DNA from: Erysipelotrichaceae bacterium 7770_A6
Lineage (GTDB): Bacteria; Bacillota_I; Bacilli_A; Erysipelotrichales; Erysipelotrichaceae
NCBI GenBank assembly: GCA_014610835.1
Contig: QQXM01000008.1
Span: 1-64,000, forward strand
Direction of reading: 5' to 3'
Length of the DNA stretch: 64,000 nt
Position numbers and translations under genes: made by a program. Shown here piece after piece: positions 46,830 through 48,842 of this stretch (within the stretch, counting starts at the first letter, position 1; each line of letters opens with the position of its first letter). The notes under the pieces were generated by a model. It saw only the letters and a list, made by a program, of their open reading frames with translations. It had not been told where the DNA came from and searched no databases.

Positions 46830-47627
46830 TTATCTATAATAGATTTTTGATCCTTCTTCCACAGAATGTAATAGCCATGTATTCCCACCAATAATACTGT
46901 GACTGCCAACGACCGTATTACCACCTAAAATCGTAGCATTCGCATAGATCACAACATAATTCCCAATATCTGGATGACGTTTTCCAGACTTTAATGGATT
47001 TCCATTTTCATCCAGATCAAAGCTTTTTGCCCCAATTGTCACACCTTGATACAGTTTTACGTGATGACCAATCGTTGCTGTTTCTCCAATGACGATTCCA
47101 GTTCCATGATCAATGCAGAAATATTCATCAATCACTGCACCTGGATTAATATCAATTCCTGTTTTTTCATGTGCATATTCACTCATGATACGAGGAATAT
47201 ATGGAATTGATAAACGGTATAATTCATGTGCGATACGATAAATATTCGTCGCATAGAAACCAGGATAGCATAACAGCACCTCTGCTTTGCTTTTCGCTGC
47301 TGGATCGCCATCATAGATTGCCTGAATATCTGTTAATAGTTTCTTCTTGATTAAAGGCAGACAGTTAAGAAACGTATCTGTCAGTTCATCTACCTGTGCA
47401 GTACTTCTATGATCAAAAGCTAAACATGTTCGAATTTCATACCGTAATGCCTGTTCCAGTTCAATACATGCTTCTTCTTGTGAAAGATCAGAGTAGTGAT
47501 AAAAATCAGGAAACAGAACAACCTGTGAAAGCTTGATGATAGAAATGATCCTTCTTCTTTCAGGCAATATCTGTTTATCATTTTTAATCAGATTTAATTC
47601 ATTCAATACATTACGATTTCCACTCAT
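46830..47627 (-). CDS. cysE: Serine O-acetyltransferase
   Basis: Makes O-acetylserine from serine and acetyl-CoA, the first step of cysteine synthesis; 265 aa. The C-terminal left-handed beta helix is evident in GIDINPGAVIDEYFCIDHG, TGIVIGETATIGHHVKLYQG and IYANATILGGNTVVG. The N-terminal helical domain is long, as in EpsC-like and plant forms. The ATG lies just before the end of cysK with GGAG upstream; a longer frame overlapping cysK is rejected. It is under the cysteine leader described below. Confidence 0.94.
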   Translation of the reverse strand: MSGNRNVLNELNLIKNDKQILPERRRIISIIKLSQVVLFPDFYHYSDLSQEEACIELEQALRYEIRTCLAFDHRSTAQVDELTDTFLNCLPLIKKKLLTDIQAIYDGDPAAKSKAEVLLCYPGFYATNIYRIAHELYRLSIPYIPRIMSEYAHEKTGIDINPGAVIDEYFCIDHGTGIVIGETATIGHHVKLYQGVTIGAKSFDLDENGNPLKSGKRHPDIGNYVVIYANATILGGNTVVGSHSIIGGNTWLLHSVEEGSKIYYR

Positions 47628-47628
47628 T

Positions 47629-48564
47629 TCATTCTCCAAATAAATCCGTTGACAAATATCGATCTCCACTGTCTGGAAGCAATACAACAATTGTCTTTCC
47701 TTTGTTTTCTTCTTTCTTCGCAAGTTCAATTGCAGCATACACTGCTGCACCACTGGAAATTCCTACAAGTACACCTTCCTTGTGACCAACCAGTCTTCCT
47801 GTTGTAAATGCATCTTCATTTTTCACACGAACAATTGCATCATAAATATCTGTATCCAATACCTTTGGAACAAATCCTGCACCAATTCCCTGAATCTTAT
47901 GCGCGCCAGCCTTTTCACCAGACAATACTGCAGAAGAATCCGGTTCAATCGCAATCACTTTCAGATCTTTGATCTTTTCCTTCAGATATTTGCCTGTCCC
48001 TGTAATTGTTCCGCCAGTTCCAACTCCAGCAACGAAGTAATCCACATTCCCATCCGTATCTGCATAGATTTCTGGACCAGTTGTTTCATAATGTGCTTTC
48101 CAGTTAGCTTCATTATCAAACTGTCCAGCAATCCATGCACCTTCTGTTTCCTTCGCAATTTCATTTGCTTTTTCAATTGCGCCCTTCATTCCTTTAGATC
48201 CATCTGATAAAACAAGTTCAGCACCATACGCTTTCATCAGTTTTCTTCTTTCAACAGACATTGTCTCTGGCATTACAATAATGACGCGATAGCCTTTACT
48301 TGTACCGACAGAAGCAAGTCCAATACCAGTATTTCCAGAAGTTGGTTCAATGATAACAGAGCCTTGTTTCAATATTTCTTTTTCTTCTGCATCTTCGATC
48401 ATTTTTTTCGCAATTCTGTCTTTTACAGATCCAGTAGCATTGAAATATTCAAGCTTTGCAATGATTTTTGCCTGTAAACCCAATTCTTTTTCAATGTGTG
48501 TCAACTCCATCATTGATGTATGTCCAATTAGTTCTGTAACGGATGTTTTAATGTTTTTCATCAT
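47629..48564 (-). CDS. cysK: Cysteine synthase (O-acetylserine sulfhydrylase)
   Basis: PLP enzyme of 311 aa that makes cysteine from O-acetylserine and sulfide. The PLP lysine is in NATGSVKDRIAKKM (about residue 46), the substrate loop is EPTSGNTGIGLA, and the phosphate loop is VGTGGTITGTGKYL. GISSGAAVYAA is also typical. AGAGG precedes the double ATG. It is translated together with cysE. The 200-nt leader carries a Cys-rich peptide and a terminator. Confidence 0.96.
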   Translation of the reverse strand: MMKNIKTSVTELIGHTSMMELTHIEKELGLQAKIIAKLEYFNATGSVKDRIAKKMIEDAEEKEILKQGSVIIEPTSGNTGIGLASVGTSKGYRVIIVMPETMSVERRKLMKAYGAELVLSDGSKGMKGAIEKANEIAKETEGAWIAGQFDNEANWKAHYETTGPEIYADTDGNVDYFVAGVGTGGTITGTGKYLKEKIKDLKVIAIEPDSSAVLSGEKAGAHKIQGIGAGFVPKVLDTDIYDAIVRVKNEDAFTTGRLVGHKEGVLVGISSGAAVYAAIELAKKEENKGKTIVVLLPDSGDRYLSTDLFGE

Positions 48565-48605
48565 TTATTCCTCTTTTCTTACACGTTTCAAGTACCAACA
48601 TACTA

Positions 48606-48663
48606 GATATATTGATCCTGAAACAAATAAGAAAAAGACCGAGGATCAATATATCTCTCGGTC
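48606..48663 (-). promoter_or_regulatory. Alternative hairpins of the cysKE attenuator
   Basis: On the minus-strand RNA, CCGAGAG (48661-48655) can pair with CTCTCGG inside the leader ORF (48724-48718). GACCGAG (48663-48657) can instead pair with CTCGGTC (48643-48637) to form the terminator. GATATATTGATCCT (48655-48642) can pair perfectly over 14 bp with AGGATCAATATATC (48619-48606). These pairings exclude one another. Confidence 0.7.
48631..48663 (-). terminator. Leader terminator upstream of cysK
   Basis: GACCGAG and CTCGGTC form a 7-bp stem with a 13-nt loop, followed by TTTTTC. It lies between the leader peptide and cysK, so it must be read through for cysK expression. Confidence 0.75.
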
Positions 48664-48693
48664 ATATTTACTCTAACAGCTTATATGTGTTGT

Positions 48694-48774
48694 TTAAAAC
48701 AACTCTGCATGAGAAATCCGAGAGCCTGAATTAAAACAACAACAGCAATTTAACACAGCAACATTGTTTTTCAT
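48694..48774 (-). CDS. Polycysteine leader peptide of the cysKE operon
   Basis: A 26-codon ORF with a strong ribosome site (GAAAGGAGAG, about 6-8 nt before the ATG). Residues 9-13 read NCCCC: four consecutive Cys codons (TGC TGT TGT TGT) at codons 10-13. The peptide ends 30 nt before the attenuator terminator. Eleven nucleotides after the last Cys codon lies CTCTCGG, which can pair with the 5' arm of the terminator. The layout is that of amino acid attenuators such as trp or his: stalling at Cys codons when charged tRNA-Cys is scarce would favour antitermination. The peptide itself probably has no other function. Its expression is predicted, not shown. Confidence 0.75.
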   Translation of the reverse strand: MKNNVAVLNCCCCFNSGSRISHAELF

Positions 48775-48836
48775 AAGTCTCTCTCCTTTCTCGTCAGTAC
48801 TTTTAACAACTATAAATTAATACGCAAGAAAACAAA

Positions 48837-48842
48837 TGTCAA
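48837..48842 (-). promoter_or_regulatory. -35 box of the cysKE leader promoter
   Basis: A consensus TTGACA on the minus strand; the -10 is less clear (TAATTT at 48819-48814 with a 17-bp spacer). Confidence 0.5.

Follow-up and report, generated by a model that had tools for sequence, protein, structure and literature searches.

In the window, i.e. the whole stretch of 64,000 nucleotides that was analysed, genes for cysteine synthesis are encoded on the minus strand, preceded by a gene for a HAD-family hydrolase, with a leader region located in between. cysK (47629-48564) encodes an O-acetylserine sulfhydrylase (Pfam PALP, E 1.5e-77) and is followed by cysE (46830-47627), encoding a serine acetyltransferase (SATase_N); the probable start of the latter is 47627, the listed open reading frame (ORF) running from 47753. 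cysE lies 3' of cysK in 17 of the 19 leader-bearing loci for which enough DNA is available. The CysK of the window contains no Cys codon at all, and Cys-free CysK proteins are found in 40 of 43 leader-bearing loci versus 63 of 76 other loci. Such a composition befits an enzyme produced during Cys starvation; yet, CysK is poor in Cys generally. For the window leader, a consensus scan detected no sigma-70 promoter; a TTGACA sequence is present at 48837-48842, but without a good -10 box 16-18 nt away.

The leader harbors an ORF of 26 codons (MKNNVAVLNCCCCFNSGSRISHAELF; 48694-48774, minus strand) with its ATG at 48774 and its stop codon at 48694-48696, preceded by the Shine-Dalgarno (SD) sequence AAAGGAG (48783-48789); counterparts exist in 43 other leaders. 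Codons 10-13 are four tandem Cys codons (TGC TGT TGT TGT, 48736-48747), the proposed stall site. Segment 1 (CTCTCGG, 48718-48724), the putative 5' strand of an antiterminator, follows 11 nt past the last Cys codon, and segment 2 (CCGAGAG, 48655-48661) is common to the antiterminator and the terminator. The intrinsic terminator (48632-48663, -12.9 kcal/mol) consists of the stem GACCGAG...CTCGGTC (48637-48663) with segment 3 as its 3' strand, followed by TTTTTC; its hairpin begins approximately 30 nt past the leader's stop codon. A consensus terminator scan of the window leader, which permits loops of at most 8 nt, returned nothing. The stop codon itself is spanned by a small hairpin, P1 (GTTGTTTTAAACAAC, 48689-48703), which is conserved and covaries in relatives. 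In addition, folding and covariation indicate that GAGAG adjoining the SD sequence (segment 0, 48779-48783) is able to form a helix with CTCTC in segment 1, and it is regarded as a protector strand. An earlier note, made from the sequence of the window alone, had described the ORF with its good ribosome site and the four Cys codons, the CTCTCGG/CCGAGAG pairing, and the terminator, and each of these was found again at its place.

The leader is not confined to the window. CysK was sought in 60 genomes assigned to the genus of the window, further copies were included, and up to 420 nt upstream were scanned. Among 59 regions upstream of cysK, SD-preceded ATG ORFs with runs of at least two, three, and four Cys codons occurred 23, 13, and 6 times, at dinucleotide-shuffle expectations of 0.57, 0.03, and 0.00, respectively. 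By inspection, 26 cysK copies of this genus sample possess a leader and 33 of the 59 have none. The leader-bearing CysK proteins are only 63-76% identical to that of the window, so the leaders are old. A covariance model (R1), built from 15 leaders and applied to 196 genomes from the family, matched 19 places at E<1e-4 in the genera g1, g3, g19, and g24. All 19 contain a Cys-rich ORF, the longest run comprising six Cys codons (MKHYTVMCCCCCCSVLNEPGPIC), and in 18 cases cysK is the gene immediately downstream; five are model-building leaders or near copies of these, the remaining ones are new. Family matches at E 0.001-0.1 were taken as chance, as they showed no convincing Cys leader and none was located at cysK. 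Beyond the family, R1 gave no true match in 395 genomes of the class and 392 of the phylum, where it retrieved family members only, plus one borderline match inside a coding region. Inspection of 80 named CysK loci revealed leaders with Cys runs and terminators in L071 (a Firmicutes metagenome-assembled genome, MAG) and L093 (a Bacilli MAG). Less certain are L114 (Clostridia MAG) and L139 (Lachnospiraceae MAG), where an ORF with a Cys run and then a strong terminator precede cysK; these two are possibly independent Cys attenuators. A class-wide search for the pattern GGAG-ATG-Cys4 produced many matches that appear to be out of frame. A second complete Cys leader in genome G235 (L186:554-679, minus strand) precedes, at the end of a contig, the gene for an unrelated protein of membrane type. 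This protein has no Pfam match, and the copy could be a captured leader, an insertion, or a misassembly.

In total, 44 leaders from divergent relatives were collected, 43 of which precede cysK. Every accepted leader comprises an ATG ORF with in-frame Cys codons, mostly with an SD sequence; the number of Cys codons ranges from two to seven, nearly always arranged as a run of two to six. Relatives that have lost the Cys codons and retained the hairpins, named beforehand as a case against attenuation, were not encountered among the accepted leaders, each of which has at least two Cys codons. L027, L029, and L038, located 5' of cysK, are Cys leaders without an SD sequence in which a -10-like box immediately precedes the ATG, so that they look leaderless. 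Across the 44 leaders, TGT and TGC are mixed into 20 different Cys-codon strings, and the flanking residues, the length, and the C-terminus of the peptide vary. What is preserved are thus the Cys codons, and neither the DNA sequence nor the peptide.

This pattern bears on a first rival explanation, according to which the function resides in the Cys-rich peptide itself, with metal binding or thiol/redox sensing stalling or releasing the ribosome instead of a lack of Cys-tRNA. Copper-linked Cys-rich leader peptides are known elsewhere, and some of the leaders keep a CxC arrangement (MCMC or CYCTC, for example). Against it, nothing in the peptide is kept except the Cys codons, and the regulated genes are those of cysteine synthesis. 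The distance between the Cys run and segment 1 also fits stalling at the codon level: in most of 34 leaders, 9-13 nt (median 13) separate the end of the Cys run from the start of segment 1, the outliers being two leaders whose longest Cys run comes after segment 1. Given the established ribosome footprint, a ribosome engaged with the final Cys codons would have its leading edge at about this place. A peptide product is accordingly considered very unlikely, and sensing of charged tRNA-Cys through the codons is the preferred reading.

The RNA elements show a conserved plan, which reads in 5' to 3' direction segment 0 at the SD sequence or start codon, Cys run, segment 1, P1, segment 2, and segment 3 with a U-tract. 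The terminator is present in 44 of 44 leaders. In relatives, the consensus sequences are CCCGGA for segment 1, TCCGGG for segment 2, and CCCGGA for segment 3; segments 1 and 3 are thus near copies of each other that compete for segment 2. The window displays CTCTCGG/CCGAGAG/CTCGG versus CCCGG/CCGGG/CCCGG in most relatives, and further variants comprise ACCGGG/CCCGGT, CCTGGATC/GATCCAGG, GACCGGA/TCCGGTC, and AGGAAAC/GTTTCCT. In an alignment of 15 sequences, the antiterminator together with P1 shows seven pairs with two-sided changes (mean of shuffled alignments 3.7, 0 of 500 as high), and the terminator four (shuffled mean 1.0, 1 of 500 as high). Shuffling gave a Fisher P of 5e-11 for antiterminator complementarity with relatedness ignored. 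When one sequence per close group was used and partners were exchanged between species at random, the observed complementarity of segments 1 and 2 was reached in 0 of 20000 permutations; all P values are optimistic, since the species are related. Taken together, the comparison shows conservation of the ORF, the Cys codons, the terminator, the antiterminator, the protector, and P1.

Conserved hairpins of this kind could also constitute an attenuator for another signal, e.g. a riboswitch, the target of an RNA-binding protein, or a T-box remnant, with an ORF that is merely incidental. P1, located over or near the stop codon, retains its UGUUUU sequence even where the ORF stops earlier, and extra helices exist, which speaks for this explanation. 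It is difficult to reconcile with an ATG ORF, mostly equipped with an SD sequence, and in-frame Cys codons in every accepted leader. No family of Rfam 15 matches the leader of the window or those of its relatives, including the T-box family (RF00230) in the cysK leader, and the 22 T-box matches in the window's genome are all located elsewhere. A signal other than Cys-tRNA therefore has little to recommend it and is given only a slight chance, similar to that of the peptide product. The covariance model and the 44 leaders would permit annotation of this element, which Rfam 15 lacks. A third possibility, namely no regulation at all but a chance ORF beside a terminator that serves the HAD-hydrolase gene, such a terminator being normal between co-oriented genes, is practically negligible as an explanation given a conserved and covarying architecture in front of cysK in dozens of divergent genomes.

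Two further pairings involve the 5' end of the leader. The protector pairing is GAGAG/CTCTC in the window, GGGTAT/ATACCC in L002, TGGGCAT/ATGCCCG in L009, GGATCCC/GGGATTC in L024, GTCCGG/CCGGAC in L168, and CCGGT/ACCGG in L169, and is weak (3 bp) in several relatives. Its covariation reached a z of only 1.8 in a first test with wide windows; with tight windows, 6 of 20000 permutations reached the observed value. The other pairing is a closing helix, formed by the sequence that immediately follows the terminator and by the 5' untranslated region, from just upstream of the SD sequence into it. Examples are ACGGCAAAGGA/TTCTTTGCCGT in L009, AAAGACGACGAA/TTTGTCGTCTTT in L071, GAAACGACGAA/TTTGTCGTTTC in L168, GACGGCGAAA/TTTTGCCGTC in L169, and 19 bp in L005; the helix was observed upstream of cysK in L009, L071, L163-L166, L168, L169, L002-L005, L016, and L172. 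None of 20000 permutations reached the observed covariation (control pairings: 19000 of 20000 and 378 of 20000). Formation of the closing helix is restricted to read-through RNA. Since it can form only in such transcripts, it could be a latch acting after the decision, which would either stop translation of the leader or shield the 5' end when the polymerase is already committed, an idea put forward tentatively and with some doubt. To our knowledge, classical attenuators have no post-decision element of this kind, and the helix raises the question of which role an attenuator plays once the polymerase has passed.

The window itself has a weak closing helix only, and a private hairpin of 15 bp occupies about the same place, which may replace it under the same tentative proposal. 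This perfect inverted repeat has its 5' arm at 48642-48656, overlapping the loop and the 3' arm of the terminator, and its 3' arm at 48605-48619, downstream of the terminator. It is private to the species of the window and would open the terminator stem in read-through RNA. As an antiterminator the repeat was rejected: it has no counterpart in relatives (P 0.33), and it cannot sway the termination decision, because its 3' arm is transcribed only after the terminator. The earlier note had listed it as a third perfect pairing of 14 bp competing with the terminator; the pairing exists, being one base pair longer, whereas the competition has to be abandoned. Of the three stems for which that note had proposed an alignment of related leaders, the antiterminator and the terminator covary and the Cys runs are kept, while this third stem is absent from relatives. 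Its general reading as Cys attenuation is largely right, but three elements had been overlooked, namely P1 at the stop codon, the pairing of the protector strand, and the closing helix.

Very probably, the cysK-cysE operon is under the control of this leader, which would act as a ribosome-mediated transcription attenuator and sense charged tRNA-Cys. This had been the central proposal of the earlier note and is strongly supported by the comparison through Cys runs, covariation, and spacing. From these we infer translation of the leader, stalling, a kinetic choice, and a response to Cys-tRNA, in the following way. With ample Cys-tRNA, the leading ribosome would pass the Cys codons and cover segment 1, leaving segment 2 to pair with segment 3, and transcription would terminate. 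With scarce Cys-tRNA, the ribosome would stall on the Cys run, its leading edge not quite reaching segment 1; segments 1 and 2 would then pair around P1 before segment 3 is synthesized, and RNA polymerase would continue into cysK. In an untranslated leader, the start region (segment 0) would pair with segment 1 as protector, favoring termination.

Equilibrium folding of complete leaders turned out to be uninformative as a test of this scheme, as the terminator hairpin is favored in nearly all cases irrespective of the ribosome state. The decision must hence be kinetic and fall during transcription. Instead, nascent chains were folded with a ribosome placed on them and RNA polymerase not yet beyond the loop, i.e. 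with segment 3 unmade. Averaged over the leaders, the predicted pairing of segments 1 and 2 is 0.61 for a ribosome positioned at the Cys run versus 0.07 for one four codons further; it amounts to 0.36 with the ribosome at the stop codon and 0.50 without a ribosome. For the window leader, the predicted value is 0.17-0.21 when the last Cys codon is the stall site and 0.06-0.07 when it is the first one, against 0.00-0.01 in the other states (ribosome past the run or absent). These values are low owing to segment 0, a competitor for pairing with segment 1.

T-boxes are the other device by which tRNA charging is read in this genome. One of them (L233:1235-1430) lies directly upstream of cysS, and its specifier apparently reads UGC (Cys), the position being taken from the T-box alignment. 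One genome thus seems to possess two sensors of tRNA-Cys charging, a T-box on cysS and a leader peptide on cysK-cysE, which would make a direct comparison of both readers possible within one cell. In Clostridium perfringens, the cysK-cysE operon is controlled by a Cys-specific T-box (PMC2940859). Operon, signal (tRNA-Cys charging), and premature termination are the same as here; the T-box, however, binds the tRNA directly. This raises the question why a lineage would equip cysK-cysE with a leader peptide rather than with a T-box.

Cys leader peptides were predicted earlier in mycobacteria, Propionibacterium acnes, and Bifidobacterium longum (cbs), with no conserved terminator hairpin (Seliverstov 2005, PMC1262725). 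Polycysteine leaders of mycobacteria were reported to be Cys-responsive (Canestrari 2020, Mol Microbiol 114:93, as cited in PMC13236596). The mycobacterial cys operons share with the present ones a short upstream ORF with a Cys run, genes of cysteine synthesis, and Cys-responsive attenuation, and the leaderless-looking L027, L029, and L038 resemble their polycysteine ORFs. The actinobacterial leaders lack a conserved terminator, whereas in the present set an intrinsic terminator and a covarying antiterminator accompany every leader, mostly along with a strong SD sequence; the phylum differs, and no sequence relation was seen. With its SD sequence and intrinsic terminator, the window leader falls outside the mycobacterial type, a leaderless Cys ORF without intrinsic terminator. 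The uORFC-8-2 motif upstream of cysS in Rhodobacterales is a predicted Cys attenuator with a terminator (PMC8632094). It likewise combines tandem Cys codons, an intrinsic terminator, and a proposed ribosome-mediated transcription attenuation. It differs in having only two tandem Cys codons, in its fold, with these codons placed within the first stem, in its target cysS, and in its alphaproteobacterial hosts; the leader described here precedes cysK, and its Cys run is placed ahead of segment 1.

Within the Firmicutes, attenuators with His leader peptides have been described for the his operon of Erysipelotrichales (six species), Peptostreptococcaceae, and B. cereus (PMC9413887) and for hisS/hisZ of bacilli (PMC2965389); they use His codons in front of his genes, and the excerpts of these two sources contain no Cys case. 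Ribosome-mediated transcription attenuation is common to them and the Cys leaders, probably including the same order. A paper on isoleucine control in Listeria reportedly invokes ribosome-mediated attenuation as well. A literature search, whose coverage included few subscription papers, found no Cys leader-peptide attenuator in Firmicutes. The earlier suggestion that a Cys attenuator would be new for this lineage agrees with this search, although the novelty is smaller than claimed in view of P. acnes, B. longum, Rhodobacterales, and the His systems of Firmicutes. With the classical enterobacterial trp and his attenuators, the leaders share mutually exclusive protector, antiterminator, and terminator helices. 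In contrast to these, the protector strand is located at the SD sequence or start codon of the leader, the P1 stop-codon hairpin lies inside the antiterminator, and in relatives the sequence past the terminator is engaged in a closing helix. The leader combines a short ORF with tandem codons for the end product, an intrinsic terminator, an antiterminator that excludes it and begins just past the stall codons, and a protector helix. On the evidence of its sequence, it would represent a new branch, within the Firmicutes, of a mechanism already known, a Cys attenuator not previously described in this group, by which cysteine would join the amino acids sensed through leader-peptide attenuation in Firmicutes.
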